DNA from: Watersipora subatra
Lineage: Eukaryota; Bryozoa; Gymnolaemata; Cheilostomatida; Watersiporidae
NCBI RefSeq assembly: GCF_963576615.1
Contig: NC_088715.1
Coordinates: 62,640,981-62,704,980, forward strand
Reading direction: 5' to 3'
Length of the DNA stretch: 64,000 nt
The notes beneath the pieces were generated by a model. The model saw nothing but the letters and a program-made list of their open reading frames with translations, was not told where the DNA came from and did no database searches. A program made the position numbers and the translations under genes. This document shows, piece after piece, positions 238-37,473 of this stretch; within the stretch, counting starts at the first letter, position 1; every line of letters starts with the position of its first letter.

Positions 238-356
238 GTTAGAATCAATTCCTGCGGAAAATTTAAATGAAGTCATTTCTCAAATGAGGATACATTTCCA
301 TGTCTCTGGTCCTTCTCTAGTTCAAGTTGATATTTACAGAGTCTTTAACATATTAG
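238..356 (+). CDS. Gene 1 exon 2: N-terminal helical segment
   Basis: 119 nt between CTTTTAAG and GTAAGT. It starts with the third base of a codon and ends with the first base of the next (phase 2 in, phase 1 out). The 39 complete codons include [15 protein letters not shown], probably helix 1 of the fold. The paralogous exon at 25227-25345 has the same length, the same phases and conserved protein sequence with many base changes, which supports coding. Confidence 0.65.
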
Positions 357-1641: not shown

Positions 1642-4600
1642 TATATAAGTTTATATGTTTATGTCACAAATTTTAAGGTGTCACCTGTTTGTTTCCTGGC
1701 AAACTTGCCCGTGTTGTCCGCAGCCCGAGCAGAGTAGAGGTTTATCCGAGGCTGCCTCTTTAGTGCTGTCCTGTTTTTTTACAGCTGTTAGACTATTTTT
1801 GGCTGCAGCACCAGAGGTGAAACTGCCAAATAGTAGATTAACTCTTTAGAACAAGTATTTGTCTTGCTCTCTGTCTAAGAATCAGATGAGTGGTGGCTGT
1901 ATCTCCCCATTTAGGATCTGGAAAAGCTGTGTCAATCTGTATTGGATTCATCAACACAGAAGGGAGGTATTGCTAGTAGGGTTTTTGCAATCAGGAACTG
2001 TTCCGCATGCTGCAGAACCTTCTTTTTTACTATGTTGACTTGATGAGGGTTTGGAAAATCACCAGATGCTGCTCTGACCAACTGTTCAACTCAGACAGCA
2101 TGCTCCTGGAGGGTAGTATGTGCATTTCTTCATATGGTAGTCAGTTGTGCCTGCACTTTCTTGAAAGAAAAATCCAACTCAGTTCTAAGACTTTCCAAAA
2201 GGGAGTTTATTAGGTTGGTTTCACCACTTTTCTGTTTCCTCTTTTAGCGAACTACTAAGATGTAACAGTGTAGCAACCTTAATCTAACGTGTGTGGCTTT
2301 CGCGATTTTTGCGACTTATGACTTGAGCAACTTATGAAGTATTCCACAACCGCGGTTCCTGGATAGTAAGATGCATTCAACTGATGAGCCAGGACTATAG
2401 TGTGAGGCACTGTCATTAGCCTTTCTAACATGTTGACAAGGTGGTCAGTGTCTCTTTTTGGGTTCTAAACATGCTGGATAGCCACGCCAGTGTCCTACCT
2501 TTGCAAATTCATCATTTAGTGATTTAACTGCAGGCTGCCACTTTTAAGACAGCTCAGCCTCTACCGTTCTGCAGGGTGTCTCAACTCAAGTTACTCAGGC
2601 CCTCTGGGTTTCTTCTCTACTGCCACGTTTAAAACAAGAATTTATCCATGAACTAAATGGCTTGTTTGAATTTTGATCTCAAGATTTTCTGCCACCAGTT
2701 TGAAGGATCCGTAATGACCCTTAACTATTTTATTTAGTACCAGTCTCTTTTTTCGAGTATAAAATATTATAATTCTTATTACATATATTTTACAGTCAAT
2801 CTATTTGCATATACAGCAACTGCTCTCCTTTTATAGGAGGAAATTTCAACTTTCTCATTCGGTGTTCGACCAGTGCTCTAAGCGCTGGCCTGGCAGCCGG
2901 CTGGTCCTCTTACTGCAAGTTGATGACCAATTGGTTGTTCTTTCAACGGGCAAATCCTTCTTTCATAAAGCCATGTTTCATGTAGCCTGGTGAGTCTGAG
3001 CCAATTCCGTGTCAGCTGGGCAATGTTACAGCTGGCCAGTCACTTGGCTATTTGATCGAACTTGGAGTCTTGACTTTACCGAGCTGGAACCTTGTACAAT
3101 ATATTCTAGTAGGCAGTTATAAGTTCGATTTATTTTAGTGAGTAGATTTCTAAATGCTGGTGAAGCTGCTGATGAAGCAAACATAATGATACAGAATGCT
3201 GACTCTGCTATGACTGCTTTTGATGATTGGAGTCAATTTAGACTGCGTGTTTTCCATAACATGTTTAATAATGGTGAGATCTTTTGGAAGCCAATCATAA
3301 AGGTAAGCCTCAAAATCTCTAAAGCCTGTCTTTTATTGAATTATTAAATTTTTATTGTCAAAAGCATTAGGAACATAATTGTTCATAAATAATGAGATCA
3401 AATTTTAGGAGAATGCAATCTTTTACAAGTTAGCATGTAATATAGATTATCATTTTGTTTCGTTGGTGTTCAACTTAAGTTCCTTGTGAATCTAAATACC
3501 ATAACAAAAAAACCTAAGTCTTTCTATTGAAGTTGCGTCAGATTCAAAGGTTATAAGATTAAAATGGTATAGCTTTATAGTAGTGAACTGCACTTGAGGA
3601 TGACAACAATTTAGAGGTCTGTCATTTTCCTTGTTGACAAACAGACATTTAAATATTCTTCTTATTTACAACAAAAAGCGTTATTCTTTCCATTAAGATA
3701 GGAAACTAAGTTCAAGTTATGTGCCAATCAAATTCAAATTTTTTTTAATGCAAAACAAGATATTTAATAAAAATTTTCAAATGGGTTGATAGGCTATACT
3801 GAAGCTATATAACAGTGTTTATACATGAATATCATTATGAGTTTAGCGGTATGTTTTTAGTTTGAGAACTTTGTATGTTACATTGAAATGTTGATCATGT
3901 TGTTGCTACTTTTAGTTGATTCATATTTTCACCTCTATTGCACTTAATATGCTAAGAAACAAGCCTATCCTATACATTATTGACCTGATTGGATGGTTGA
4001 TACACTCAATCGATACAGAACCTATAAATTCTTCATGCATGACTGTTCTTGGATGGATTAATACTCACGGTGGTTGGGTGAGAGGTCTTATAATACAAAT
4101 ATAACACAAAAGTCTGATCAGTACATAGTAATACTTTAAAAGTGTTACAGTATAAATATAATAAGAATTCTACTTATAAGGTCACAGTATAGTATAAATT
4201 TAACACTTTAAAATCCAGCAAATATTAATTACACTTAGAGACTACTACCAATAAATAAAACTTTATGCTTTTACCTTAAACTTATTTGAAAAGTACAACT
4301 ATGTGTAAAATTTATGATTCTATATTGATATATGAGGTTAAAAATGAATGGAATAGGTTTTATTACTTTGAATCTTTTACAGAGCAAATTTAATTTTGAG
4401 ATAAGTTAAACCAAGTTCACATTTATAACTGATTTGCGCAAGAGCGTTTCTTCGTCATGTTTTAAAGTTGTTAAATGTCCTTCCCAGCATAATTCAGTAT
4501 TACATGTCGAAATGACACAAACAGCAAAATTTTTTGAACTTTTTTCCAAAGTCATGTTTGATGTGAGATCTATTAGCTTGAATATAATGCAAAATCTCCT

Positions 4601-5150
4601 GTTGACATAAAATGACAAATAAATGGATAAATAAAATAAATTAATTGATGAAATAAGTGATGGTAACCTATCAGTGTATCAATACTTCTCAAATCAAAGT
4701 CTGTTAAAAGCTGTACGTACCTGAAACTCTGTTCCTGCTAGTTAATGATAGATTAGACAGTATGTAAATGAATTTGCTGACCTTTACTTGGACACGATCT
4801 AGAATGCTGCATAACGAATAGAAAATAAGTATGGGTTTTGTTCATTTTATTTATGAAAGAAAATATGTTAGTCGAAAAGTTTGCGACTACTGCTTTTCTC
4901 TCTTATTGAGCGCACTTCCTCCATATAAATTTATTTAGCCACTCCGGATAATGGAACCGGGTAAGGAAAAACTGACTAACAATATCAATAATTGGAATCG
5001 CAAATGTGTTGGCATGGTTTTAATAAACTAACATTACATTTATGACACAACATAAACAAAGGCAAAACATAATAGTGGTGCAGTAAAATTAACAACTTAT
5101 TAACAATACAATAAATAGAGCATCGCAACATGCAAGATATATACATATAT

Positions 5151-5196
<46 letters not shown>

Positions 5197-8100
5197 ATAT
5201 ATATGTGTATATTTAAAGAAACAAGAAAGTCATGACCCAGCGTCCACCACACACTCTTCTCCATTAGGGACTTTGTCTAATTAAAAAAACAAGGGTGGAG
5301 CAACCAGCCGGGCCCACATCTCAAACTGTTCACCACAATTTTTAAGGCGGGTTATTTTTGACTAATCAATCGTTTGACTCCAGTGGATAACTGGTGGTGT
5401 ATCCTTGCCTTGGTACTACGGGCTACCCCTCTGCACTGTCTCCTTTCTTTCCGTAGCTTTTGTTAGAAGGTCTGGATATGGGTAGGTAGCTAGAGGGTAT
5501 AATATACCCTCTAGCTACCTACCCATATCCAGACCTTCTAACCGTCTAACCACGCTACTAGGACAGTCACCATATTATGGTGACTGTCCTAGTAGCATGG
5601 TTAGACGGTCTGAGCTAGGCTACTGGGTCGTCTGGTCAGTAGTTTGTTTTTCTTTAGGCGAGAGGCTCCGGTTATGGCTGGGCCTCCGTATCCTCTTGCT
5701 GGTTTTCAGAGAAGGTATACAGAGTATCATGGCAGTAGCGTCCCATGCCATGTTTCGCTCGAACTATGCCCATCGTGGTTGGTTTAATGGATATATTACA
5801 TGGTCTGCTTGTTCCACTGGGCTACGGTGCTTATGTTGAATAACATGTTGAACAAAACATATGTTGAACAGACGTATAAAGCAAGATTTTGCAGTACATG
5901 GGGTTTAGCCTGTCAGCCACTGGTAATAAACTCGCATAGTTCGCAACATTTGGAGTGCCTTCTAAGTGCTGCTGCAGCTTATTTCTTAGTCTCCTCTTCC
6001 AAGAATTGCTTGTTTCTGACAGTGCATGCCCCTAAATGGATTATTATCAGTATTAATCCTGTTTTCTACTGCCTGTACAGTGGTTTACATGAGGAGTGAT
6101 AAGGCTGGGCACTGGTAAAGTGACTTCTTCAGAAAATCTTCCTCTAGCGCGAGGCTAATCACCGGAGATGGGGTGCCAGAACAAAGGCTGGCTTAACCTT
6201 GTAAGCATCTATATTCCTCAGTCGACAAAGGGTGGTTTCAATTGCTGTCAATCAGTCTTGTTAGAGCTCAGTTCCTAGTTCATGTAGCAGTGCGTTGAGG
6301 CTGATATCATTGGTGTGCATTCTGGCAAGATGGAATAATTGTGCTCCTGGCTCTACAAGCTCTAGCACTTTATGTAGTAATTGGTATCCCAATCTCATCT
6401 CTATACCATGTCTCTTTGTGTCTTCTGTCATTTGGTAAATCTTATCCCCATATCGTTAAGGCCTTTGTCTAATACAAAATGGACGGTGGTTTGGCTCCTT
6501 TATATTGGTGATGGGATTTTCCACGGCTTTGGGTACATTTCCAGGTAGCTAGAGTCTAGGTTTTTATCTAACTAACCAAGATTTTTTTTTGAAGAATTTA
6601 TTTTCTCTCTAGTTTTGTTTTTGGGGTGTATTGCAGCAGGTTCAGAGTTCGAACCCTCGTGCAAGTTTTCATTTTCCACACAAGCCTGTAGAGTTGCTTT
6701 TTCCATTTCGTCAAGCTTAACAACTGGAATAATTTGAGAAGGAAACTCCATTAACTCCTTGTCAGTTTGTGGGTAGTTTCTTCATGAAGGTCAAGCTCTC
6801 CTGGCTCCTAACATATCCAAGGTTATCCAGGCAAGCATAATAAAGTTTAAACCTGGACTAATGTTAGGTCAAGGTTTGGCCCTGTCTGTTCACCACATAG
6901 GTGTAGTTGCTAAAGGTGATTCTGACTTGGTATGGGTCCACGAACATAGCTTGTAGCTTAACGTTCGCCCCTTGTGGCCGCCCCCTGTTCACTAACTAAC
7001 CCCAATCCCCAAGTGCAAGCAGCGGTGGTTCTTCTTGGTTTGACTGCCGAGTTTCCATCTGTGCCTCTCCAAAAGCCTTGTGTGTTTCTTTCAGCCTCTA
7101 CTGTCTCTGCAGTAGGTATTTGCTAGTAGATTGCATTTCTATCGGAGGAGATGACATTCCAACTAATCAGGCAGTCCCAAGTCCCTGTAAAACAACATGA
7201 AATTTTCTGTCTGCCTGTCACGATGTGGGGGTACCATGGTGCGCCTGCATGAACTCGGACAGAAGTTCGTCCCATTTCTCCTGTCCTCGTATCAACGACA
7301 TGGATTTTACAGAGTTGCCCAGGCCTCGACTGTTTCTCTCTATGATCTTAATTGCTTAGGGATGGTAAGCAGTCATGTGTGTCTTGCTCACCTTTTAGAG
7401 CTGGCAGACCTCCTCAACCAGTTGGCTCTCAAATTGAGGACCTTCGTATGTGTCGATTTTCTCTGGAAGCCCCAGGTAGCAAAACACCCTTTCATCGAAG
7501 GTACTGGCCATCACTAGAGCCGTGGCCTCTGGAATAGCAATGACATCCTACCTTGAAGTAAAATGATTCGAGAGCACTAACATCTACTTACTGTCCCTCA
7601 ATGTGGTGGGGAGGGGGGCCCACCAAGTCAAAAGCGGTCTTCTGCCAAGGTTAGCCAGTGTAAAACTGCTGCCGGTTTCCTGCAGGCTTACTCCAACCAT
7701 GATTGATGGCCTGGCACACCTCACAGCTATGTACCAACCTGTGGACAGCAGCTGTCCATGTAAGACATGGCAACCTGCCATCATCCTTACTAAGGAGTGG
7801 GTCTTGATGTGTTTCTGCCAAGTAACTGGCTTTCTCATAGCCAGTGGCAACATGGCACACCACCAGATTTGACCATGAGGGGCCACTCTGGCTTTTATCA
7901 TGCCATCTTAACTGATTCTCAGGGATTCCCTTTTGATATTAAGAATTCTGAGCTCCTTGCTTTCCAATTTCAGCGGTTCCGAATGCACTTTGTGTGACCC
8001 CAAATATTTCAGTTAATTATGGCTATGGCGTTCTTGCCCTCGCTCTGCAGTCGAGCCAACTGGTTAGTTAGCTGAGCCGATGCCTCAAGTCCTAGGACGG

Positions 8101-10505
8101 CCTCGACCGACCTCGAGCCGATTCACGCCTCCATGGGGGCAGGGCGCTAGCCCATCTGGCCAGTCATCTAGCGAGACTTACGCTCAGAGACTTACTCTCA
8201 GCTTTTGTGTGGTTGCTGGTAGCGACTAGTAGTGCCTCGGGTCATCATCCGCTTGATGCCAAGAAATCCCAGGATTACCTCAACCGGCCTTGGGTTGGCT
8301 TTGGCAGTCTCAGTTGAGACAGGGGGTCACATCCATTAACCGGTCACCTCGCGCACTGACCTGGCAATCCCTGACAGAGCATGGTTTCTCCCTACCACTC
8401 TAGCCTTTTTCTGGTACTCTGAGTCTAACTCCAGCCGGCTTGAGACCCCATTGTGGTGCTTTATTTGGACACACTGCCGATGATATTTGCAAGCCTGTCA
8501 GTTTAAGCCATCCTCGTGGCCGTGCTTTAAACTCGAGAGGTGTTCCAGCACGTATTTGAACTTGGCTAGCACCTCTAGCCAATGTGCCACCTAGTGAAAG
8601 GTTGTTTTGCGGCAGAGCTATTGCAGAATGGCATGGTTTGTTCAAAGGAAAAACTCTAGTCTGAATAGGTATGGGCAGAAGTGTTTTACTACTCTGACTA
8701 CCACCACCAGCTTTTAGCTTGTCACACAGTAATTTCACTCCAAGGGAGTGAGTGTTTTGCTGTAGCAATCACTCACTTGTTCCTAGTCGCCCTGCTGCTG
8801 TGACTGCACAGCTTCCATGCCGCACTTGCTAGCATCTGTGTTCAGGATATATGTGTTTCCTTGAACTGGATACCCCAGCACTGGTGCTGGGGTAAAGTTG
8901 TGGCAGAGGGTGAAAAACGCTGCCTGCTCCTCGCTCTTCTATCGCCAGGGTTTTTCCTTTCTTACTATTGGGTGGAGGGGCTTTGCAATGGCTTCCCATA
9001 GCTGCCACCAGTGCAAAGGAATTAATCGGCCTTTACTAAGGCACCATCTAGAATGTTGCATAAAAAAGAGAAAATAAGTATAGGCTTTCGTTTGTTTTAT
9101 TTATAAAGGAAAATCCATTACTTGAGGAGTTTGCGGCTACTGCTCTGCTCTTTTATTGAGCGAACTCTTTTTGTATACATTCTTTGAACTGTTCTAGATA
9201 ATGGAACTAAGTAAGGAATAACCAAATACCAACAAAAATATTTAAATATGCTAATGTGTTGGCTTGGTTATAATAATCTAACATGGCAATAACGAAACAA
9301 CATAAATGACAGCAAAACATAATGGTGAGGCGGTATAAACAAACAAGTTATTATCGGTACAATAAAAACAGCAACACAACTTGCAAGATTATATATATAT
9401 TTCTTTATTCTTATAAATTGGTTTTATAGGCCAAATATTATTCTTATAGACTTTCTTATTCCTATAAATACTTGTATATGAGCTGCACAAAGATCGCGTT
9501 AATTAAACGATTAACGTGATCAATACAAATACACGATTAACTGAGTTGAGCCAATTAATCTTCAAATAAAATGCAATACAGGTGGCTTATGACAAGCAAC
9601 ACTTTTTTACCAATTAAATACAACCACAATTATTTTGCACTCAACTATGAAAACACTAAGTCAGTCACTTACATAAAACTTGTTCATACAACAAAAAAGT
9701 GTGGTGTCGATCTAGTAATAAGCAGCCATGATGATAGTTGTTTTAAAATGTTTTTAGGTAATAGCAACCGCAGCGATTTCAGTACTATTTAATATCTAAC
9801 AGTCTATATTTTTGTTTATATTTTAAATTTTTTTAGGTAAATTATACATGTATTTTAATTTTTCAATAAAATCACAATCATATTTCAGCTTTAGAAATAT
9901 TGTAAAATAAGGTTGACACTTTATTGGAAGAAAAAAGCACAAAAATGTCCTCCGTACTAACTGACACAATTACATACGTTGTTGGAAGCATAAACAAGAA
10001 AGCGAATTGCAATATTTGCCAGAAAGATTTTGCCTACCACAACAGCACATCATCATTAAGCTATCATTTAACTAATTCTCATCATACCTCTCAGAATTCA
10101 TCACCAGCTGTTACAGACAATAACTACTACTGCTGACTACCACCACTACTGTCCCCTGTGAGCGGCTATTCTTTAAAGCGGGCAATATTGTTTGTAGGAA
10201 GAGGGCATATCTTCATTCGGATAATGTGAATAAACTGCTGCCTCAACTTTTGGCTGTCCTAATAATAGACTTTCATAGACTATTTTCATACTCATAATAA
10301 TTAATACTTGTAACCTATGTACATTGTACGTAACATGTACTCCTGTTAACAATAATTGTCTCAAATCTAATTAATTTATATGTAGCTGTACTATTTGTTT
10401 TCGAATATGCAGGTTTTTGCTAGATTAATTCTAACATTAGTCGAAGAGTAACTGGTTCAGGCCAATTATTAATCGCGATTAATTTTTATAATCGTTGTGC
10501 AGCTG

Positions 10506-10570
<65 letters not shown>

Positions 10571-11313
10571 GGAGGACTGGACAAACGCTAACCATGCTCT
10601 TAGCTTTAGACACCGATATTCTTTGTTACGACTTTAGGTGTGCTTCCTTTATATCTTGTTATGTAATACTCTTGTGTGTGCTTCTTTTATACCCTATTAT
10701 ATAATACTGTGTTTCTGGGCCTGCCTCACAGGCCTGCCACAACGCATTTGGTTTTACATAATCATTATGTAAGTGGGCGGAGTGAAACCGTATATAAGGA
10801 GAAGGCACAGGCCAACTCATTGGGACTTTTACTTGTGAACTCGATGCTGTTTAACGCTGTATGGCATATGTGCTGATTATATATATTAAATAGACTACAT
10901 TTATTCTTACGAACTGATCACGTTTATGCCTGCCTGGTTGGCTTAGTAAGGATCATTCTGCCAGAACTGATCTGGCTTCAAGTACAAACTGCTTGGGAGA
11001 TACCTAAGGAAGGCTAGGGCTTGGCTGCATTACAACCGGACCTGATCAAAAATGTGATAGCATTGGAGATCAGGCCCTACAGTAAGCTAGCCGGGACCTA
11101 GACTAGCCAAGATAGGGTCTCAGAGAGCAGGCCGTGTTAGTATTCCAAGTGAGCGTGAACTGAGGGCAACCAGCCGCGGCCTGATCAGACCACTAGGTGT
11201 GTCAGGCAGGCCGACGAGGAGAAGGCCCAGTGTTCAGACTGCACCGGCTTGTTAGGAAAGTAAGGCTGGCTCAGCTACCGGGGCCAAACCTTTACAATAT
11301 ATATATATATATA

Positions 11314-11348
<35 letters not shown>

Positions 11349-11773
11349 ATATATATATATATATATCTATATATATGTATATGTATATATTTATATATAT
11401 TACTTATTTATATATTACTTATATATATATATTACTAATATATATATAAGTAATATATGTATAAATATATACAAAGATGTATATATTTATAAATATATAC
11501 ATAGATGTATATATATAAATATATACATATATGTATATATATAAATATATATATATATGTGTGTGTGTGTGTATATATAAGAAAGTCATGGTCTAGCGTC
11601 TACCATAAGTGTTGAAATATTTCTACTTGATGTTTTGTTTAATCCTTGAGAAACTGAACCATAAGAATACTAATCAGTTTACTAATGATTAAGAGGCACT
11701 TTTTTAGGTGACAATGCTTAGTTTGAACAATCCAGATGACTTGATTCAAGGGGACGTCAGGTCTGATTCTAAA

Positions 11774-11809
<36 letters not shown>

Positions 11810-12713
11810 AATGATGGTGATGATGATTCTGATAAAAATGAGAATGGTAATGGCGACGACAAAGGCAGCACTGACAAGGTTTGCAATACAAATTAATATC
11901 ATAATTAGCAGATTTCAATGACCTAATTTTGATGATTTATTTTAAAAATGACTAACTTTAAACTTTTCAAGTTATTTAAATTCAGAACAAGTAAGAATGG
12001 TAATAGAGGCGACACAAAATTTCAAATAGGTAGCATGGAGAAAGCTCGTAACATAAACTTTGATCAAATATCAAAGAAATACAGTAAAACAGTAAATGAG
12101 AGTCATAGTAAAAAAGACTTGATAGTTAAACTCAAAAAGCTGATACATGTATTTTTAAAACTAAATATTTATTGTTCAGCAACAGTTATTGTGCTCTCTG
12201 TTAACAAGGGTGTTCTTGTTGTAGTCATTAATTTATTTGTCGCTATTATTTTAAATGTTGTAGACTGGAAAGAAACACAGACGGTCAGAAGTTGCTCAAG
12301 TTGTGGGATTATTAGATGGAGTTGTTGCAGCATCTTTAAAAGTTTCAGGAAAACCTCAGAGGTTTTGTAAATCATGCAAACAAAATACTACATATGATTT
12401 GAATCAGAGGTATATTCATTGCTCAACATGTAACAACTACCTCTGTCTTTATAAAAAATGTTTATCAAGTGTAGTTAAACATAAGCACTTTCTGGAGCAC
12501 AGATCAACACATGGTAAATTAAACCCAACAGAGTGTATTTCATGTGGTGGTGAAAAAAAAGCTAGTCCTGAACAGTTTGGACGATGCCCAAATTGTGAGA
12601 TCTTCTGGTGCCTGGTGAAAGGGTGCTATCAAGAGTTTAAAGAAATCGCCCGACTGCAAAATCATATGAAAAATAAACACAAAGAAGTCAATATTGTGCC
12701 GTACATTGCATAA
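238..12713 (+). CDS. Bcl-2-like protein fused to acidic linker and two zinc modules, copy 1 (5' partial)
   Basis: Five exons (238-356, 3139-3302, 3916-4077, 11708-11878, 12264-12713) join in one frame for about 354 codons, each with an AG acceptor and, except the last, a GT donor. The start codon lies outside the window. In order the protein shows a helical N-part, a BH3-like FLNAGE, a degenerate BH1 (GEIFWKPII), a hydrophobic helical hairpin, BH2 WINTHGGW continued by VTMLSLNNP, a run of 12 Asp, a basic patch (TGKKHRR), and two zinc-ribbon plus C2H2 modules. Known Bcl-2 proteins control mitochondrial apoptosis and usually end in a membrane helix; here the zinc part takes that place. I infer a soluble, possibly nucleic-acid-binding Bcl-2-fold protein. 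BH homology rests on short motifs, spacing and intron position, so the Bcl-2 assignment is likely, not certain. Introns are swollen by transposons. Confidence 0.65.
699..761. repeat. Imperfect hairpin
   Basis: Left arm 699-720 (AGGCTATAACTTTAGACAAAA...) pairs with right arm 740-761 with two mismatches over 22 bases. The loop itself contains a short palindrome (TTGATTA/TAATCAA). It lies in gene 1 intron 2 and has no clear function. Confidence 0.6.
825..872. repeat. Compound CA/TA microsatellite
   Basis: A short CACACA run passes into (TA)n. It is a simple repeat within intron 2 of gene 1. Confidence 0.8.
872..965 (+). mobile_element. Possible pogo/Tigger-type MITE end
   Basis: The segment starts ACAGTCAAACATGGATAACT, and below it the phrases 'aactcgaac' and 'gaattatcag...caagttatcag' recur. 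CAGTCAAAC...GATAACTCGAA is a form I associate with ends of pogo-like DNA transposons. No opposite end or TA target duplication was identified, so this is only a candidate fragment. Confidence 0.3.
1401..1577. mobile_element. 177-bp MITE with TA target duplication
   Basis: Terminal inverted repeats of about 26 bp start CACACGTATT and continue GGTGTTTAGGTCAAA; the left copy reads C and the right copy T at one site. The element is flanked by TA at 1399-1400 and 1578-1579. Near the right end a second internal hairpin pairs TTCCGACGTTGATT with AATCAACGTCGGAA. TA duplications suggest mobilisation by a Tc1/mariner-type transposase. There is no coding capacity. Confidence 0.65.
1588..1640. repeat. 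(TA)n microsatellite
   Basis: Nearly pure alternating TA next to the MITE. Confidence 0.9.
1660..2240 (-). pseudogene. Degenerate retroelement gag-like remnant
   Basis: On the minus strand the translation is interrupted by several stops but contains a knuckle-like [11 protein letters not shown] (about 1690-1735) downstream of a polar, gag-like stretch. Base composition is more GC-rich than the surrounding intron. The knuckle has Gln where His is expected. This is probably a fossil gypsy gag inside gene 1 intron 2; the family is not certain. Confidence 0.35.
2241..3138. other. Intron sequence with probable retroelement debris
   Basis: GC content stays above that of the flanks to about 3090, with minus-strand fragments that look coding-like but are broken by stops. 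No family was recognised. The last 40 bases form the acceptor region of exon 3. Confidence 0.35.
3139..3302 (+). CDS. Gene 1 exon 3: BH3-like and degenerate BH1
   Basis: 164 nt between TTTTAG and GTAAGC (phase 1 in, 0 out). It encodes [11 protein letters not shown], which sits where BH3 (L-x3-G-D) would be. About 36 residues later comes [14 protein letters not shown], aligned with BH1 (F-x-x-G-x-NWGR-V-V). The spacing from BH3 to BH1 is close to that in BCL2. The Asn, Gly and Arg of NWGR are replaced by Phe, Lys and Pro. Confidence 0.65.
3916..4077 (+). CDS. Gene 1 exon 4: central helices and first half of BH2
   Basis: 162 nt, phase 0 at both ends, with acceptor TTTTAG and donor GTGAGA. It encodes a hydrophobic stretch ([10 protein letters not shown], then IIDLIGWLI) followed by [19 protein letters not shown] is the clearest Bcl-2 family signature in the window. 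The copy at 32621-32782 is almost identical, much closer than the other exon pairs. Confidence 0.7.
4790..5134 (-). repeat. LTR-like repeat, left copy (3' LTR of the reverse gypsy)
   Basis: It shares TCTAGAATG, TGCATAA, AAAATAAGTAT, CTTATTGAGCG, GATAATGGAAC and AACATAATGGTG-like blocks in the same order with 9038-9385. The exact ends are uncertain because similarity runs a little past the TGCA...TGCA boundaries. Confidence 0.55.
5139..5210. repeat. (TA)n microsatellite
   Basis: Almost pure TA immediately inside the left LTR-like repeat. Confidence 0.9.
5464..5540. repeat. Perfect 37-bp-arm palindrome
   Basis: Arms 5464-5500 and 5504-5540 are exact reverse complements with a 3-base spacer (AAT). 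They run from TAGAAGGTCTGGATATGG to GAGGGTAT on the left arm. The palindrome directly abuts a second one. Confidence 0.9.
5541..5609. repeat. Near-perfect 34-bp-arm palindrome
   Basis: Arms 5541-5574 and 5576-5609 match with one mismatch (CCACGCTAC against GTAGCATGG) and a 1-base spacer. It lies back to back with the palindrome at 5464-5540. Confidence 0.9.
7150..7901 (-). pseudogene. Gypsy integrase remnant
   Basis: Minus-strand segments read CEVCQA (zinc region), DLVGP-like core start, then [30 protein letters not shown] and IIERN, in the order of a Ty3/gypsy integrase. Stops interrupt the frame. The second catalytic Asp (normally HTDxG) reads DTYEG, so that acid is lost. Plus-strand ORFs here are shadows. 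Confidence 0.6.
8400..9000 (-). pseudogene. Gypsy RT tail and RNase H remnant
   Basis: The minus strand shows EAIAKPLH, then [19 protein letters not shown] and [11 protein letters not shown] (the RNase H TDAS motif), then SKTLTPLE and a [15 protein letters not shown] region, all typical of gypsy RNase H. Several in-frame stops are present. Confidence 0.6.
9038..9386 (-). repeat. LTR-like repeat, right copy (5' LTR of the reverse gypsy)
   Basis: This is the partner of 4790-5134, visibly diverged by substitutions and small indels. The RT tail remnant begins within about 40 bases of it, which marks a deletion of the leader, gag and most of pol. Confidence 0.55.
9924..10136 (+). pseudogene. BED-type zinc finger fragment of hAT transposase
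   Basis: The 70-residue frame contains [20 protein letters not shown] followed by YHLTNSH. This C-x2-C, then S-x-L-x-x-HL-x4-H layout is the BED finger that binds DNA in hAT transposases. The frame ends after NNYYC, where it runs into the C-terminal part, so the fragment is joined to the far end of the transposase by an internal deletion. Confidence 0.65.
10137..10275 (+). pseudogene. hAT transposase C-terminal dimerisation fragment
   Basis: It reads [20 protein letters not shown] then [10 protein letters not shown]. The P-x-ER-x-FS/F-x-AG pattern is characteristic of the hAT C-terminal domain. Confidence 0.65.
10508..10567. repeat. (TA)n microsatellite
   Basis: Pure TA for about 60 bases. 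Confidence 0.95.
10568..11034 (+). mobile_element. Solo or truncated LTR-like segment
   Basis: It begins TGTGGAGGAC, ends GCATTACA (TG...CA), and carries a TATA box at 10791-10797 (TATATAAGG). It is followed by leader-like sequence with repeated GATCAGGCC motifs to about 11296. No coding region and no second copy are seen in the window, so LTR identity is inferred from layout only. Confidence 0.4.
11035..11296 (+). other. GC-richer leader-like segment after the LTR-like sequence
   Basis: It contains repeated CTGATCA and GATCAGGCC motifs and ends at a (TA)n tract. It is probably part of the same retroelement fragment; no ORF is supported. Confidence 0.35.
11297..11578. repeat. Long degenerate TA-rich satellite
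   Basis: (TA)n mixed with TATATTACTTATATA, ATAAATATATACA and (GT)n units. Any ORF across it is an artefact. Confidence 0.9.
11708..11878 (+). CDS. Gene 1 exon 5: end of BH2 and Asp-rich tract
   Basis: 171 nt, phase 0 both sides, with acceptor TTTTTAG and donor GTTTGC. It opens [17 protein letters not shown], which continues HGGW of exon 4 in the way BAK continues GGW with V-x-x-L-x-L. It then encodes 12 consecutive Asp from a (GAT)n tract plus further acidic residues. One exon therefore contains both Bcl-2 sequence and linker, which argues against accidental joining of two genes. Confidence 0.7.
11879..12263 (+). other. Gene 1 intron 5
   Basis: A 385-base AT-rich intron. An ORF starting at 11948 crosses it but does not match the exon frame and is not conserved in gene 2. 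Confidence 0.6.
12264..12713 (+). CDS. Gene 1 terminal exon: two zinc-ribbon plus C2H2 modules
   Basis: 450 nt encoding 149 residues to TAA, from acceptor GTTGTAG. Module A has C35, C38, C53, C56, C61, C66, H79 and H83. Module B has C91, C94, C108, C111, C116, C121, H134 and H139. Each is CxxC-x13/14-CxxC-x4-C-x4-C-x12-H-x3/4-H. The second half of each is a C2H2 finger with unusual x4 cysteine spacing. All 16 ligands are kept in gene 2. Confidence 0.75.
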   Translation, partial: TGKKHRRSEVAQVVGLLDGVVAASLKVSGKPQRFCKSCKQNTTYDLNQRYIHCSTCNNYLCLYKKCLSSVVKHKHFLEHRSTHGKLNPTECISCGGEKKASPEQFGRCPNCEIFWCLVKGCYQEFKEIARLQNHMKNKHKEVNIVPYIA

Positions 12714-25226: not shown

Positions 25227-25345
25227 GTTAGAATTGAATGCTGCAGAAAATTTAAATCAGGTTGTTTCTCAAATGAAGATACATTTCAATGTTTCTGGTC
25301 CATCTCCATTTCAAGATGACATCTACAGAACCTATGACACAATAA
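25227..25345 (+). CDS. Gene 2 exon 2: N-terminal helical segment
   Basis: 119 nt, same length and phases (2 in, 1 out) as 238-356, with acceptor CTTTTAAG and donor GTAAGT. It encodes [19 protein letters not shown], clearly the homologue of the copy 1 segment. Confidence 0.65.
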
Positions 25346-28300
25346 GTAAGTAAACATAAGTTCTGAATAGAACACTAATAATGGTATAAATCACTGAGTA
25401 TTCACTGCTTGTGAGGATGCTGACCTAAGGATAATGTTTAAACAGGCTAACATTATAATCGATGCCGTGAAATAATAAGTAGCTAAACTTGTTACTAATT
25501 GTTATTCTTTATAAAGCTTTACATAAATACTCTTTAGGACAGATTGTGTTGGAGAAAACTAACTTGGTAAGCTAATTGCAATTACTGCAAAACATTTTAT
25601 TGAACACTATGGTGCTCTATCTTTCAACAATTTCTCTATAGTAGCAGTCAAATAGAGGTGGCGTTCAAATAGAGATGGGGTTCAATTAGAGGCTTTTGCG
25701 GTACACACTTTTATCAAGGAAATCTTTTCTTTTAGGAACTGAATAAGGAACGAAGGTGATAAGAAACTGATAAGGAACTTATCAGTTTTATCATTGTTTA
25801 TCATTTCATCAAAGAAACTATGATACTTCATTGTAATGTCTGCCATGTATATGACTTCGTATCTACGCAGTGTGTGTTTACATAAAATGTTCATATCTCA
25901 TACATCTAAGAGTATTGTTTTATTGTTTCTCTAACCATGAATAATGTTTTCAATAATCAGAGAAACATTTTTTCTAGGCTATCACAGTATGTTGAACTTG
26001 TTATGAGCTTGCAGAATGTTCCGAGTTACACTTGTCATAAAATAATTAGTTAGCTAGTCATGATTAGCTAGTCACTTGGACTAATTTAAAGCTTTTGAAT
26101 AATGATAGCCTTGTGTCTAAAGCTAACTTAATAAGCATGGAATAATGCTTAAGGATCTCCAGTTATATAACAAGCATGCTAGTACAAACCAATAGTACTT
26201 TCTCAAGCATTTTAAGCCTGCATATTTTAGTCGGTTTAATGACTATGGTGACGGTTCTGGTTTTAGCAAACAAATTTAATTGACTAATCTTAAACCGGAT
26301 TACTGTAGTTAGAATACACATTAAAATAAATTCATATTAGCAAAATGTTACGACTCTGCATTCAAAATTATTTAATAAACTGTTGTAGATAATCATTAGT
26401 TTGATGAACTTTAGGGTGTAGATTGTTGAGAGATGGTGAGTTTTCTGAAGAGGAAAACGTGATGATAGATGCTGACAATTCCATAACTGCTTTTGAAGCA
26501 TGGAATAAATTTAAGCTGCGGGGTTTCCATACCGTGTTTAAAAATGGTGAGATCTTTTTGAGGCCAATCATGAAAGTAAGTTGAAAAATCTTTTAAGCAT
26601 GTCTCTTCTCATTTCACTAATTATGAAACTTATTGTTAAAAAAATGAGTTCAGCTTTTAGGATAATGGAAAGTATCATAAACTAGCTTGAAATATAAACG
26701 GTCATTTTGGAAAGTTTGTTTTTGCATATTAGATTATTTTTTGTTGACAAGTTCAACTGAACTTAGCCTTATACACTTAAGTTGGTTTTTTATCAAAAAC
26801 ATTACGGCTAAACTGGTAATGATGCAGCAATGGATGTTAGGGGTCAGAGCAAAAAAAGGATGAAAGACCCAAGCTACTGACCGGAGTCAAAAAAGCCGGT
26901 TCAGCCAAACAAAAAGAAAAAGATTGCTGCTAAGGCAGCATTAAAGACCTTCGGTTTGGCTGAAAATGCAACACTTACATATATTGCTATTTTTCTCAAG
27001 AGGTCCAGTTACCTGTGGAATAGTAAAATAATACAGGGGTTTCTTTTGAACTGGTAGCAGCTATGGGATCTCAAATCCTTGGCTCTAAAAGAACTGGCTA
27101 ACCCTTAAAGGTACTAATCGAGGATGTCTTAGTGGTAGTAAAAGAAAAAGCCATGAGATAATTTGTTCTTCTATAAATCTTTTAGACTAGCTTAGGAGCC
27201 CAGGGGAGCCTAGTCACTTTAATTCTGGCAGCTGTCTTCTAAAAATCTGAAGGATCCCCTTCACAAAAGCTGACATCAAGATGGCCACTGGGTGTTCTAG
27301 GAGCACAGACAAAAGTATATGTTTTACCAAAGCTTTAGAGCTAATGATGATGGTGCCCAAGGGCTCACCCTTGGCTCACCAGTTTCAGTCACCCCGGTAC
27401 TCTGTATCAAGAGATGTAGAGGCTTGAAGGATGCTTTGCCCTTATGGAAGCCATAGCACCAGTGGTCGCTACTGTCTTGAACAAGAGGGACTTCTGCGAC
27501 ACAGGGTTTGCCAAAACAGTTTGAAAATCAGCTAACAACTGAGTTGTGCCAGCTCTGGCGTGTGGAGAACTCACACATTACTCCATGTTACCCTCAGGCT
27601 AATAGAGTAGTACAGCACAGCAACTGAGTGACTTGCTCAGGTTTCTGCTATTGACCAGAGGTATAAAAATAGGATGTGTTTCTTTCCCAGCTAACGAAGG
27701 CACAATGGGGTATGACACTTTTGGCTTTAGAAAAGGTAGCAAACATGCTGAAAGCCGAAAGAGAACTGGGCATGCCAGACTAGCCAAACTATAACCTTCT
27801 ACTGACATACACTCAGCCAACATGTGAGTATGCGGTTGGCTTGCTACAGAGGCTGGAGGAGTTACATGCCACCTTCAGACAGGCACACATAGAAATCTGA
27901 CAAAAGTACAGCAAGAGTGACCTTCCATCTCCTGGTTACAAGGTATAGATGGTAAACAAATGCCAGAAAAGAGGAAAAAACCTAAAAATACTAGTTGAGT
28001 TTTTTGGGAATTAATGATATTGAAGAAGTCTAGCTCCAAATAGTCCACACATACCTAGTAGACTGGCAGAGACAACTATCAATCTGAGTTGGAGGCTTGC
28101 TGAAACCTTGCTATGCATGTTCAGAAAAGTTGGGATGATCACTAGCTATCATAGAGCCATAGTAGATGCCATAGTATGAATGAAACAAAAGAAAGAAAAA
28201 CAAAATCAAAGCTCTGGCCAGAGGCTACTATAAAGCTGCCCTGTCTAAAAGTAGATGCCACGGGAGTTGGGAAGCTGCCATATCAAATCGAAAAACTTTT

Positions 28301-29059: not shown

Positions 29060-29110
<51 letters not shown>

Positions 29111-29125
29111 AACGAGGCGCAATGG

Positions 29126-29170
<45 letters not shown>

Positions 29171-29185
29171 AACGAGGCGCAATGG

Positions 29186-29262
<77 letters not shown>

Positions 29263-32162: not shown

Positions 32163-32193
<31 letters not shown>

Positions 32194-35100
32194 GGGAAAG
32201 TATGCAACTTTTCATTGTACTCCAGTGGATTGGTTGTTTGTGGAGTAGTCAAGGGAGGCAACAGCTTTCTTTATAGTATAACTTTGTTATAGCCAAATGC
32301 GCAATATGACAACAGCATCATTGAGGTGCATCGATTTATTTGTTGACAATCACACCTTTTAATGTTTTTTTTTGCGGTTTACTGCATTAAGCATTAATAT
32401 TTTATTTAGATAGCAAATCAGGGTTGGGTTATGAAAGCCTATTTTAAGTAAAATTAAATTGATTTTTTGTGAGTGCAACTAGACATGTGGTAAACCTGTA
32501 AAAATAGACTGATAAATTGAAAACATATGACAACGAGTAAAATTATAAATTTATCATTATAGTTTTAGTCTGAGAATACCAAATGAAATGAAATGTTGAT
32601 TATGTTGTTGTTACTTTTAGTTGATTCATATTTTCACCTCTATTGCACTTAATATGCTAAGAAACCAGCCTATCCTACACATTATTGACCTGATTGGATG
32701 GTTGATACACTCGATTGATACAGAACCAATAAATTCTTCACGCATGACTGTTCTTGGATGGATTAATACTCACGGTGGTTGGGTGAGAAGTCCTATAATA
32801 TAAATATAATACATAAGTCTGCTTTCAAGGTTACAGTATATTGTAATACTTTGAAAATCAGCGTATGTTTTTAGGTCTGAAACTTATCACTAACAACTAG
32901 AAGTCTACGCTTTAAACTTAGACGTATTTTAACCTTGCATCCAAAGTACCTGATTCTGTGTATAATTCATTTTTTGATGGTATAAGTTACAGTAAATAGA
33001 ATAATTTTTTTAATTTTTTCAAATTCTCTACTGTATTTTCCTAAAACTTTTTCAACTTTGAAATAACGAGAACTGATTTCATATCAATACATAACTTTTT
33101 TGCCATGTTTACAATTATTATTATTAGAGCAAGCATTAATTTTCATTACCACATTATTGTGTCAGGCACGTTTTACACACCATTAAGTAATCATCTCCCT
33201 ACTTTTATTAGCATTGACAGCTATTCACGTTTATTAAATATTTTTGATAGCGCAAGCTTTTCATTCCGGGATTACAAAAAATTTAATGAGAACTCGTTTT
33301 TGAGATATTTGGCAGACCTTTACTGGAACCATTTGTTAAACAACCAATTAACACTAGATGAAAAAATATGATACCTTCTTACAAAATTTTTTAGATGTTT
33401 GTAATAATCATGCACCCACTAAATCTTTTAAATCGCAGTCACAGGCAAAACACCAGAAGAGAAAAGCTTAGAATACAGCAGAGGTTTTAAACTTGATAAA
33501 GAAAAAAACTATCTATATTGCAGAACATTAAATTTTCCCTTAAACACGAAATGAATAAATAAACACAAAAAAATTAAGAACAAACTAACAACAGCTTTAC
33601 GGCTTTCTAAATCCAAATATTTTGAAGAAAAGCTTCAGGCTACCTCTTATGCTTGACACTTGCGGAATAGTGTTAATCAGGAATTAGGAAAAAGCACTGT
33701 AACATCACCGGTGCCTAAACTAATTATTGACAGTTGAAACCAGGTTTTAGAAGATGAAAAAAGTATTGCCGACAATTTCAACAGTTATTTTGTAAATTTT
33801 GGACCCAACTTACCAAAAGCGTTTGATAATACCTTTCAAGAAGAAAAAATACTATTGCAAAGTAATCTGTCAAATCCAGAGTTTCAATTTTAAAAAGTTG
33901 ATAGCATTGAGGTGAAAGCATATTTGCAAGATTTAAATATAAAAAAGCTACCGGCTTAGATAATATTCCAGCAAAGTTATTAAAGCTTGCTTGTTGCTCC
34001 ATTTGCAATCCTTTGACACAATTAATTAATGAATCTTTAGAAATTGGCCAAATCCCAAAATTTAAAATAGCTAAAGTAAAACCTTTATTTAAAAAAGGCT
34101 CAGTAAAGCTTTGTTCAAATTATCGGCCTATTTCGACACTGCCTGTCATAAGCAAAATACTGGAAAAGATCGTGAACACACAAATTATGCAATATTTAGA
34201 AAGTAATAATTTGATCCATGAAAACCAGTTTGGATTTCAGAAAAATAAAAACACTGCACTAGCTCTTACTCAATTCACAAATCAAATTTTAAAAGCATTT
34301 AATGATGGGAAAACCGCACTTGGAGTCTATCTTGATTTTAGTAAAGCCTTTGATACCCTTGATGACCAAATTCTTTTATATAAGCTGAAACAGCTAAAGT
34401 TTAGTTCAAATTCTATTAAATGTGTGGGAAACTTTCTTTCTCAATGAAAGCAACTCACCATTACTGGACAATCTGTTTCTGATGAACTACGCATTACATG
34501 TGGTGTTCCCAGGGATGCATACTTGGTCCGACACTTTTTTTAATTTATAATAACGATTTATCAAACATTTTAACAGTTTTTACTCCCATTTTGTATGCCG
34601 ATAATACAAACTTGTTTTTAGAATCCAAAGAATTAGATGAGCAAATTTTTGCAGTAAATAATGAACTGATTAAAATTCGAAAATAGTGTACTATAAATAA
34701 ACTAACATTAAATGTAGACAAATCAAACTTTATGATATTAAAAAATCATCAAAATAAATATGAAATCCCTAAGACCGCTTTAACTTTGCATAGTAAAATT
34801 TTATACCAAGTCGAAAGTGTAAAATTTCTTGGTGTTCACATTGATACAAATTCATCATGGAAGGATCACACACACAAACTTTTTAATAGTGTTAGACCTT
34901 TGTTAGGAATTTTACATGAATGCTCAAGTTATTTACCCCACACAATTTTGGTTTTAATTTACAACGCATTTATTCATTCTAAATTCAGTTACTGTATTGA
35001 GGCTTTGGGGAACGCCCCAGGTAAATACTTAAACAAACTCCAACTTCTACAAAAACGAGTTCTCGGGATTTTTCATAAAAACTTAAATTAGAACACACCC

Positions 35101-36448
35101 GCCCACTTTTTCAAAAATTTTCAATTTTGACTGTGAGTAAATTCTATAAATTTCGAACTCTCATCGCGTTTCATCAATTATTCTACAGCTTTAAATTATT
35201 TACCTTTATTCTACAGCTCTTTCTTAATTCTAAAGCTACCTCTCTCTAAATCTGTTTCGGGTTATCGCAGAATGTCATACCAGCAGTCAGTACAATGGAA
35301 CGCTCTGCCTGATGAACTGCGTAGGGTAGTGAGTAACCCCACTTCTAGACGTGCCCTCAAGCTGTACCTGTTTCGGTGGTGATTAAATTGTCTCTGGCTG
35401 CTAGCTGTTAACTTGTGGCCCAGCGCCTTGACTAGCAATGCTACTGCGCAGTTTGGGCCTCATCATTATTACTTTTTTTCTGTTTTCATATCTTTTGATG
35501 AAATAGAAAACAAACAAACAAAGCATAATCATGACGTTTTAAACTGGCGCGAATAGCAACATATTAATAGTTTTATTTCAAAATCACACTGTGTTGTTGA
35601 CTGTACTAACAGGAACATAATATGAAAATCTCCTGTCAACATTAAAGAATGTAATGAACTATTTAGTCAATTCAATAATGCTAAACTATTGGTGTTGATA
35701 GATGATATAACTAAAATAAATAATATATAGAAATATAATATTTGGAATAGACAATATATAATATATAGAATAAATAATAATTATGTAACACATAAAATAA
35801 ATAATTTATAATATATATAGCATATAAAATATATGACATATGCAAGAGACAACAAATAACATATAAAATGAATAATATATCAAATGGATAATATATAAAA
35901 TAGATAGTGTATAGTATATAAAGAGAATAAAATATAATATATAAAATAGGTAATATACCAAATAGATAGTATAAAAATTAAGTAATGAATGATATATAAT
36001 ATATAAAATAAACGTATAAATAAACTAACTAAAGCGTTGGAATAGGTTAAGGTTCCTTATATTAAAATCCAGGTTGCTGTTTATATCTGGTTTCAGGTCT
36101 GTTTTGTGCTTCAGCACTCATCAGGTGATTTGCATTAGTATATATTTGCAACATATATATGATATATATACTACATGTATATATTACAATAAATATCATA
36201 CAGTAGATGAGTATGTAGCTATATTATAAATCAGACATCATTCAAATACTTTTACACCATTATTGGTCCAACCATTGAGAAATTGAGACGTAAAAGTTAT
36301 AAACTGTTTCAATCTGATTAGGCAGTAAGAAGTAATTTTTATAGATTTTTTAAAGAAGAAGATTAATAAGTATTTTTATAGATTACAATGCTAAGCATGA
36401 ATGCGCCAGAAGACCTGGTTCAAGGAGAGGTTAGGTCTAATTCCGGAG

Positions 36449-36480
<32 letters not shown>

Positions 36481-37473
36481 GCTGATGATGGTGATAATGA
36501 TGATGATGATGATAATGATGGTGATAATGATGATGATGATGCTGATGATGATGCTGATGATGGTGATAATGATGATGAATCTGATGAAATTGAGGAAAAT
36601 GAGGATGGAGACACAAAAAGGAGCACTGACAAGGTTTGTATTGCAACCTAATAAGATAAGTTTAGAAATACAGTAACTTAATGTTGATTATGTATCTTAA
36701 TCACGACTAGCTCAAACTGTTTCAATTTATTTAATTAAAATCTCAAAAAATGATTACAGAGGCAAATCAGTAGCATACTTTACTATAGGCAGTATGAAGA
36801 AGATTTGTAAGACAAATTTAAATGATAAATTTAAAAACTGCTGTAAAATAGTTGATTATAATTATTGTAACAAAGTCTTGAACGCTAAACTAGAATTACT
36901 GATAGGAACCCTTTTTAAACTATACATTTGCCGTTTAACACTAGTTTGCTTTCTGTTAAAATCGATGCTCTTAAGCTAGTCGAAACTTTATATTATTGAT
37001 TGTATTGAATGTTGCAGACTGGTAAAAAGCCTCGGCAGTCAGAAGTTACTCCAACTGAGATAGAAGTAGTTACTACAACTTCTTTAAAACATTCACCAAT
37101 ACCAAGAACACTGCTAAGGTTTTGCACTAGTTGTAGAAATTATACTGCATGTAATCTCAAGTGGAGGTATATTAATTGTTCAACCTGTGCGAACTACCTC
37201 TGTCTTCGTAAAAACTGTTTATCAAGTGTGAAGAAATGGAATCATTTTCTCGAACACAGAAACAGGCATTGTAAAAAATTCCCAAACGAATGCATTGCGT
37301 GTGGTGGCAAAAAAAGGGTTGGTTTAAAATTAAATGGACAATGCCCTAATCCTAACTGTGAAGTTTACTGGTGCTTAGTGCAAGGTTGCTTTAAGGAGTT
37401 TGTAACCTTTGAAAAACTGGTTGTACATTTTAAAACTAACCACCCACAAGTCATGTTTGTGCCTGAGAAGTAA
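25227..37473 (+). CDS. Bcl-2-like protein fused to acidic linker and two zinc modules, copy 2
   Basis: Exons 25227-25345, 26415-26575, 32621-32782, 36382-36633 and 37018-37473 join in one frame for about 382 codons; the first coding exon was not identified with confidence. Domain order equals copy 1: N-terminal helix, BH3-like LLRDGE, BH1-like [12 protein letters not shown]2 WINTHGGW plus ITMLSMN, an acidic stretch of roughly 60 residues, then two zinc modules with all 16 ligands. In this copy even the BH1 Trp is gone (Leu). Exon 5 is 27 codons longer than in copy 1 through GAT expansion. The role is inferred as for copy 1. Frame conservation across all exons, with many silent changes in exon 6, suggests that both copies have been under selection. 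Confidence 0.65.
26415..26575 (+). CDS. Gene 2 exon 3: BH3-like and degenerate BH1
   Basis: 161 nt between CTTTAG and GTAAGT, one codon shorter than copy 1. It carries [13 protein letters not shown] (BH3-like L-x3-G-E) and [14 protein letters not shown] at the BH1 position. Confidence 0.65.
26800..28500 (+). mobile_element. Degenerate Ty3/gypsy fragment in gene 2 intron 3
   Basis: Plus-strand frames show [12 protein letters not shown] and [20 protein letters not shown] (integrase core), then [32 protein letters not shown] and a [12 protein letters not shown] C-terminal tail. The same blocks occur in order in the intact integrase at 60364. Stops interrupt the frame; the DxG catalytic region reads ATQG. 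LTRs were not found. Confidence 0.5.
28501..29060. other. Intronic debris, unclassified
   Basis: Moderately GC-rich compared with the genes' introns and probably part of retroelement remains. No domain or repeat partner was recognised. Confidence 0.3.
29061..29257. repeat. Compound microsatellite with embedded 22-bp unit
   Basis: Three (TA)n blocks are separated by two identical copies of AAAGAACGAGGCGCAATGGG(GT) at about 29107 and 29167, a spacing of 60 bases. Dipeptide (YI)n ORFs across it are artefacts. Confidence 0.9.
29466..30956 (+). pseudogene. LINE reverse transcriptase domain
   Basis: 496 codons. RT blocks in order: [28 protein letters not shown] (motif A Asp), [15 protein letters not shown] (motif B) and [12 protein letters not shown] (motif C, YIDD). 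An N-terminal coiled, charged region precedes RT. The frame ends at TAG (30954-30956) inside what should be continuous coding sequence. All RT catalytic aspartates are present, so the copy is fairly young. Confidence 0.75.
31104..32085 (+). pseudogene. LINE C-terminal zinc knuckle and restriction-like endonuclease
   Basis: It lies in a different frame from the RT. It contains [18 protein letters not shown] (C-x2-C-x8-H-x4-C), then [20 protein letters not shown] and P-x-D followed by [13 protein letters not shown], which match the PD...D endonuclease core of R2/R4-type elements. A stop near 31450 splits it. Ends with a TAA-type stop at about 32085 after LKLPGLW. Confidence 0.7.
32160..32200. 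repeat. TA-rich tail
   Basis: (TA)n-like sequence at the 3' end of the LINE. Confidence 0.8.
32621..32782 (+). CDS. Gene 2 exon 4: central helices and first half of BH2
   Basis: 162 nt, phase 0 both sides, with acceptor CTTTTAG and donor GTGAGA. It differs from 3916-4077 at only a few bases (for example [10 protein letters not shown] against [10 protein letters not shown]). The flanking intron stretch TGTTGTTG...CTTTTAG is also nearly identical. This is much closer than for exons 2, 3, 5 or 6. Confidence 0.7.
33080..35522 (+). mobile_element. APE-type LINE (CR1/jockey-like), 5'-truncated and degenerate
   Basis: It begins inside the endonuclease (SNHLPTF, equivalent to the SDHxPTF end motif), followed by a linker and RT. 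It ends with [29 protein letters not shown] tail sequence and a 3' terminus GATGAAATAGAAAACAAACA with an (AAAC)n-like tail at about 35500-35522. It lies in the sense direction within gene 2 intron 4. It is a different class from the LINE at 29271. Confidence 0.7.
34013..35091 (+). pseudogene. LINE RT domain, frameshifted
   Basis: RT blocks: [36 protein letters not shown] (motif A), a TCGVPRDA / [17 protein letters not shown] pair at a frameshift (motif B) and [10 protein letters not shown] (motif C, YADD changed to YADN). Stops lie at 34445 and 34684. The altered catalytic Asp and frame breaks show an inactive copy. Confidence 0.7.
35523..36381. other. AT-rich intron with degenerate ATAATATATAAAATA repeats
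   Basis: Between about 35690 and 36010 the motif ATATAAAATA(A/G)ATAATATA recurs irregularly. Beyond the acceptor of exon 5 nothing else is seen. Confidence 0.6.
36382..36633 (+). CDS. Gene 2 exon 5: end of BH2 and long acidic tract
   Basis: 252 nt, phase 0 both sides, with acceptor TTTTATAG and donor GTTTGT. It opens [17 protein letters not shown], then about 60 mostly Asp residues with Gly, Ala and Asn interruptions encoded by (GAT)n-derived sequence. It ends STDK exactly as in copy 1. Reverse-strand Ser- or His-rich ORFs here are shadows. Confidence 0.7.
37018..37473 (+). CDS. Gene 2 terminal exon: two zinc-ribbon plus C2H2 modules
   Basis: 456 nt, 151 residues to TAA, with acceptor GTTGCAG. 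Ligands: C36, C39, C54, C57, C62, C67, H80, H84 and C92, C95, C109, C114, C119, C124, H137, H142. The only spacing change from copy 1 is C-x4-C for C-x2-C in the second pair of module B. The start [10 protein letters not shown] matches [10 protein letters not shown] of copy 1. Confidence 0.75.
   Translation, partial: TGKKPRQSEVTPTEIEVVTTTSLKHSPIPRTLLRFCTSCRNYTACNLKWRYINCSTCANYLCLRKNCLSSVKKWNHFLEHRNRHCKKFPNECIACGGKKRVGLKLNGQCPNPNCEVYWCLVQGCFKEFVTFEKLVVHFKTNHPQVMFVPEK

Follow-up and report, generated by a model that had tools for sequence, protein, structure and literature searches.

Genes A and B, which lie in a 64,000-nucleotide window (the whole stretch of DNA analysed) on contig C8 of the Watersipora subatra genome, probably belong to a lineage-expanded family that joins a Bcl-2 fold to a nucleic-acid-reading zinc array, in proteins that are likely soluble and whose Bcl-2 part may serve as an effector or adaptor; we put the probability of this reading at roughly 0.6. 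Exon order, intron phases, homology, family size and the selection pattern can all be read directly from the assembly searched (784 Mb, 239 contigs). The initial annotation had described a single gene. Its architecture holds, but its extent was underestimated, as the genome contains two further complete copies and roughly a hundred related loci.

The exons of gene A share one frame, with AG preceding all five, GT following the first four and a stop codon ending the last (Table 1). Joined together they encode 354 residues, counted from the exon at 238-356, which lies outside the 3139-12713 range annotated initially; no start codon of gene A was seen. Exon 3 has its phase-0 donor directly after GGW, and in each zinc module of exon 5 a C2H2-type finger comes after two Cys pairs. 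The BH3-like stretch, degenerate BH1, strong BH2, Asp-rich tract and two zinc modules described in the initial annotation were all recovered at the positions in Table 1, and the end of BH2 and the acidic tract do share an exon (11708-11878). The joining of these exons in one frame, also proposed there, fits the AG/GT sites and phases and recurs in two further copies, genes B and C. The predicted exon set of gene A is real and not a chance string of open frames, because the five exons recur in the same order in B and C with equal phases. The stretch 5486-9000 of the window, inside a gene A intron, looks by eye like a reverse-transcriptase or integrase relic.

Table 1. Exons of genes A and B, numbered from the first nucleotide of the window.
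Feature	Position	Strand	Content	Basis
Gene A exon 1 (first seen)	238..356	+	N-terminal region	AG/GT and phase; conserved in B and C
Gene A exon 2	3139..3302	+	BH3-like stretch and BH1 (14 residues)	Splice sites; BAX and PF00452 matches
Gene A exon 3	3916..4077	+	Central helices and BH2 up to WINTHGGW	Splice sites; profile
Gene A exon 4 (57 codons)	11708..11878	+	End of BH2 (VTMLSL) and Asp-rich tract	Splice sites; A–C alignment
Gene A exon 5	12264..12713	+	Two zinc modules, then stop codon	Ligands invariant in A–C
Gene B exon 1 (first seen)	25227..25345	+		Homology to A; splice sites
Gene B exon 2	26415..26575	+	BH3-like (LLRDGEF) and BH1	Homology; splice sites
Gene B exon 3	32621..32782	+	BH2 up to GGW; 94% protein identity to A exon 3	Homology; splice sites
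Gene B exon 4 (84 codons)	36382..36633	+	End of BH2 and longer acidic tract than in A	Homology; splice sites
Gene B exon 5	37018..37473	+	Two zinc modules and stop codon	Homology; splice sites

Gene B is a second five-exon copy inside the window (25227-37473), and the third, gene C, runs on the other strand 111 kb away from B, near C8:62.79-62.80 Mb. Exon order, intron phases and canonical GT-AG sites agree in A, B and C, the zinc Cys and His ligands are invariant across the three, and protein identity to A is 62% for B and 61% for C. Set beside the BH3 motif L-x3-G-[DE], the BH3-like stretch reads FLNAGE in A and LLRDGE in B and C, and is not clear in the C6-type members of the family. Conservation between B and C gave no convincing candidate for a start exon of gene B. 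The window copies evolve fast, since overall dN/dS is 0.50 for A–B, 0.49 for A–C and 0.73 for B–C, and the B–C ratio is near 1 in exons 2 and 5 (0.97 for the zinc exon). The BH2 exons together with their flanking intron (A 3834-4141, B 32542-32856) are 85.5% identical in DNA and 94% in protein, the other exons of A and B being 53-70% identical in protein; this local similarity suggests gene conversion or a recent copying event. Zinc exon D (C8:60991713-60992159, L007), the fourth of this close group, is 58% identical to gene A and was rejected as a fourth full copy, as the roughly 18.7 kb upstream of it (L050, L051) matched no Bcl-2 exon.

Repeats and candidate relics also lie in and around these genes. 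A 34-bp tandem repeat of 17 copies occupies window positions 19071-19650, and its unit recurs in the exon 3-4 intron of gene C. A 48-bp minisatellite of 46 copies (47185-49402) is open over 776 codons on both strands. The stretches 29409-32085 and 33911-35091 in the introns of gene B, as well as 60340-62406, resemble reverse-transcriptase or integrase relics by eye.

Gene A by itself matched the Bcl-2 family model PF00452 at E = 1.2e-4 to 6.9e-4 (20.6-23 bits, with a Pfam cut-off of 31.4 bits), a match at 2.6e-4 and 21.9 bits among them, and its matches in the PDB at E up to 1 were 12 distinct sequences, all BAX (best 6.3e-5). A profile built from A–C only was weaker, reaching BAX in the PDB at E = 0.18 and the animal's own Bcl-2 genes in hhalign with a probability of 37.9 (E = 3.4e-4); full-length Pfam scans found PF00452 at E ≤ 1 in one of the three copies. 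We then used a joint profile of eight members (A, B, C, L054, L057, L058, L061 and L062). It identified BAX in the PDB at E = 9.2e-6, the best 60 of its 197 matches being all BAX, BCL-XL, BFL-1/A1, BCL-2 or engineered forms, and aligned in hhalign to four Bcl-2 fragments of the W. subatra genome with a probability of 93.6 (E = 2.1e-7). PF00452 also matched seven of the eight members singly at E ≤ 10 (best 2.7e-6). The joint profile and these single matches bear out the Bcl-2-like domain of the initial annotation. The Bcl-2 identity assigned to the domain by these profiles is real, and firm once distant relatives are added.

A search of the W. subatra genome with PF00452 hit five places, none of them in the Bcl-2-zinc family. 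As this search missed the family and gene A falls below the Pfam cut-off, similar genes may be overlooked in other animals. Canonical Bcl-2-like genes (L001-L005) are also present in the genome, among which L003 has a BAX-like BH1 and L004 contains stops in the matched frame.

The NWGR position of BH1 reads W-E-R, W-E-K, W-E-N or W-K-P in the family. The glycine of this motif is found in none of ten BH1 sequences, being replaced by Glu in seven and by Lys or Arg in A–C. In classical Bcl-2 members the NWGR arginine binds BH3 helices. An arginine occupies W+2 in four of the ten sequences (L057, L058, L061 and L062) and in none of A–C. Canonical BH3 binding appears doubtful for A–C because this arginine is missing at W+2, and it would be more plausible for the four members that have it.

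As stated in passages of PMC8998228, pro-survival Bcl-2 genes show high conservation of the exon boundary that falls at the GGW tryptophan of BH2, several other members retain this boundary, the transmembrane region is encoded by the exon that follows, and the C-terminal anchor of Bcl-2 proteins is crucial to function. In all 11 BH2 exons examined here an AG precedes the exon and a phase-0 GT donor comes directly after GGW or GSW, and GT directly follows the corresponding tryptophan in the own paralogues L001, L002 (NKW there) and L005. A C-terminal transmembrane anchor is common among Bcl-2 proteins, though not universal. No strongly hydrophobic stretch that could form an anchor follows GGW in the joined A, B and C proteins, for which the best 19-residue hydropathy values are 1.51, 0.92 and 0.72, respectively. 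No alternative hydrophobic terminal exon was found in the post-GGW intron of B (3.6 kb) or C (3.2 kb), and that of A (7.6 kb) contains four candidates under a loose rule, two of them microsatellite-like. Applied to 1.5 kb after GGW in canonical genes, the same rule gave two candidates for L005, a single one for L002 and zero for L001, which makes this a weak control. Being loose, the scan shows only that B and C are without an obvious anchor exon. The sequence and the low post-GGW hydropathy of A–C support the initial proposal of a Bcl-2 domain that is joined to a zinc-binding C-terminus and lacks the usual membrane anchor. Replacement of the anchor exon by zinc exons at this ancient intron would be the simplest history.

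Comparison of the gene A zinc exon with the genome gave 73 matches, many in open frames of ~270-300 residues that start at a splice acceptor. Four 8-kb upstream stretches were read (L053-L056), of which L054 contains both BH1 and BH2 and L055 contains BH2; searches for Bcl-2 exons in the L053, L056 and D stretches yielded no significant match. At E up to 10 the L054 exons retrieved 105 BH1-like and 89 BH2-like matches, of which 65 and 64, respectively, reach E ≤ 0.001. A search with the L031 zinc array returned 139 pieces that merged to 121 loci, a set that leaves out genes A–D: 64 on C6, 18 on C11, 14 on C5, 13 on C7, 7 on C9 and 5 elsewhere. A BH1- or BH2-like exon (E ≤ 10) lies within 10 kb upstream on the same strand at 100 of the 121 zinc loci; 200 trials of random placement within the cluster spans averaged 3.4 such loci and never exceeded 8. 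BH1, BH2 and zinc exons occur in order, with each step at most 10 kb, at 55 of the 121; a further 20 have BH2 only and 25 BH1 only, and 21 have neither a BH1- nor a BH2-like exon within 10 kb upstream. Controls over the same distance counted 4 (BH1) and 1 (BH2) downstream on the same strand, and 4 and 2 on the opposite strand. These BH counts are seeded by one member (L054) and include weak hits; with hits at E ≤ 0.001 only, which are relatives of L054 so that distant clades drop out, 56 of the 121 loci have at least one BH exon and 42 have both.

The exon structure extends beyond the window copies. The BH1 exon ends in phase 0, five residues past the tryptophan position, in A–C and in five of seven other members examined. 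In L059 and L060, both on C7, no GT follows the BH1-like exon, and the BH2 exon keeps its AG and GT. Six pairs among L054, L057, L058 and L062 gave dN/dS values between 0.34 and 0.42 in the BH1 exon and between 0.18 and 0.38 in the BH2 exon, and pairs with the distant L061 were saturated or scattered. Elsewhere on C8 (4.1-5.8 Mb), L013, L014, L015 and L019 carry very similar 287-residue zinc arrays, L013 and L019 being 97% identical; L053, the one stretch read upstream of this group, seems to contain a LINE-like element and has no Bcl-2 exon match.

Across seven arrays, the zinc module consists of a Cys4 unit and then a C2H2-type finger, with invariant ligands, and four fingers in L031 follow the pattern C-x2-4-C-x12-H-x3-5-H. 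At E up to 1, a profile of the seven arrays matched 44 distinct PDB sequences; almost all of these are named C2H2 proteins, including CTCF (the best, 0.0017), YY1, WT1 and AEBP2 (E 0.0017-0.009). Pfam scans of gene A and the seven arrays gave no match to C2H2 models, no KRAB domain was matched at E ≤ 1 in A–C or the seven arrays, and the SET domain was absent from the Pfam scans. AlphaFold produced a poor model of the zinc exon (pLDDT 49.8).

Selection on the fingers was analysed in 18 four-finger arrays (58 pairs), a set distinct from the two-finger genes A–C. The zinc-ligand columns have a dN of 0.004, and the seven-residue finger helices reach 0.431 versus 0.19-0.28 elsewhere. We applied the numbering of classical C2H2 fingers to the arrays and take positions -1, 2, 3 and 6 to be the base contacts. 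At these positions pN is 0.417 versus 0.223 in all non-ligand columns, and none of 10,000 random column sets reached the contact pN at each of three identity cut-offs. Tested against helix positions 1 and 5, the contact positions gave p = 0.034, 0.051 and 0.004 at the three cut-offs. All of these figures rest on array columns assigned from one sequence and on pairs that are non-independent. Contact pN (0.489, 0.417 and 0.323) and overall pS (0.537, 0.376 and 0.284) are about equal, and the variation of the contact positions is matched by that of some terminal and linker columns. Taken from the four-finger clade, this pattern supports a putative nucleic-acid recognition with diversifying specificity.

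The same array might instead bind proteins or dimerise, in which case the fusion and the expansion would be real and soluble Bcl-2 regulators would have diversified by partner choice. Classical C2H2 arrays consist of short-linked fingers. The Cys4 unit and linker between successive fingers of this family, the lack of a Pfam C2H2 match and the presence of only two fingers in A–C all favour protein binding. The concentration of variation at positions -1, 2, 3 and 6 over helix positions 1 and 5 argues against it, and we consider it rather unlikely. A more radical alternative is that the Bcl-2-like and zinc exons form two neighbouring genes, copied as a unit but never joined by splicing. The exon join is predicted from sequence and not from RNA; the interval in gene A is long (7.6 kb) and holds mobile-element relics, and some zinc loci have no nearby Bcl-2-like exon. 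For separate genes, however, one would have to accept BH2 exons that end in a phase-0 donor without a stop, zinc exons of A–C that start at a phase-0 acceptor, order and strand kept in most loci, and no Met before the first Cys pair in 14 of 27 distinct zinc ORFs (A and D included; some of the 27 are fragments). This makes co-duplicated neighbours very improbable in our judgement.

We give marginally less credence still to the possibility that the family consists mostly of remnants of an earlier expansion and that the window copies are drifting. Decay of this kind could explain the B–C dN/dS (0.73 overall, rising to about 1 in exons 2 and 5), the in-frame stops in many of the 139 zinc pieces and the donors lost in C7 members, but hardly the nearly unchanged zinc-ligand columns, the dN/dS of 0.18-0.42 over BH1 and BH2 exons in six pairs, or the 64 of 139 zinc pieces that stay open over at least 240 aligned residues. 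An origin of the zinc tail as a mobile-element protein was also considered and judged unlikely, because the tail belongs to a multi-exon setting that is conserved and subject to purifying selection.

In the reading we prefer, a Bcl-2 fold joined to a nucleic-acid-reading zinc array, the anchor exon would have been exchanged at the conserved post-GGW intron for zinc exons carrying two modules in A–C and four in the larger-clade arrays. The resulting proteins would most likely be soluble. Their zinc array would recognise a nucleic-acid target, with a specificity that diversifies among paralogues, and the Bcl-2 fold would pass the recognition on as an effector or adaptor, through binding to a BH3 partner or to some other regulator of cell death. 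Membranes are the known site of action of Bcl-2 proteins, and we infer that the fold may here have acquired a new location or role. If the exons are spliced as modelled, an apoptosis regulator would have been turned into a diversifying, probably nucleic-acid-reading family, which makes it testable whether the Bcl-2 fold acts without a membrane anchor. It is possible, and we suggest it tentatively, that the roughly one hundred clustered loci form an as yet undescribed class of animal defence proteins, in which every locus would combine a Bcl-2-fold effector with a zinc array of diversifying base contacts, and which would bind foreign or mobile-element nucleic acid and convert this binding into a cell-death or repression signal; such a system would be a counterpart of the KRAB zinc-finger proteins built on an apoptosis domain.

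Queries of a protein database (5.8 billion sequences) with gene A, the A–C alignment and the seven-array alignment returned no protein of this architecture. The gene A and A–C queries gave one chance-like match each (P0001 and P0002), and the seven-array query found one real relative, P0003 (ENA, 205 aa; E = 8.9e-68), which matches the zinc array. P0003 probably derives from a different species, or else from a copy that this assembly lacks, as its best matches in the genome reach 67% identity in an intact stretch and 78% in one broken piece. A Bcl-2-zinc fusion was likewise not found in titles and abstract beginnings among the matches listed from the open-licence literature. The domains themselves are known; what appears to be new is their joining in one architecture and an unexpected expansion and selection pattern.

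Among known systems, the family resembles the multidomain, BAX-like Bcl-2 proteins (PF00452) in its BH1-BH2 sequence, in having BAX as the best PDB match and in the intron directly after GGW. It differs from them in the lack of an anchor in the joined proteins, which carry instead a zinc exon and, ahead of it, a linker exon that is acidic or short, in the altered NWGR motif and in its size of about a hundred loci. BCL-RAMBO and BCL-G are likewise Bcl-2 proteins called non-typical or given other roles; the parts of their descriptions available mention no zinc-finger tail. The nearest parallel in kind found is the IAP families of bivalves, which are lineage-expanded apoptosis regulators with tandem arrays and domain shuffling; those proteins are built on the BIR domain and not on Bcl-2, and the available text makes no mention of a Bcl-2-zinc fusion (excerpts of PMC7831173). 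Clustered lineage expansion and fast change at base contacts are shared with C2H2 proteins of the KRAB zinc-finger and PRDM9 type, whose DNA-contacting residues are under positive selection in KRAB zinc-finger duplicates and PRDM9, with fewer contact-residue changes between most orthologues (excerpts of PMC3126818). Unlike those proteins, the members described here have no KRAB or SET domain, place a Cys4 unit before each finger and begin with a Bcl-2-like N-terminal part.
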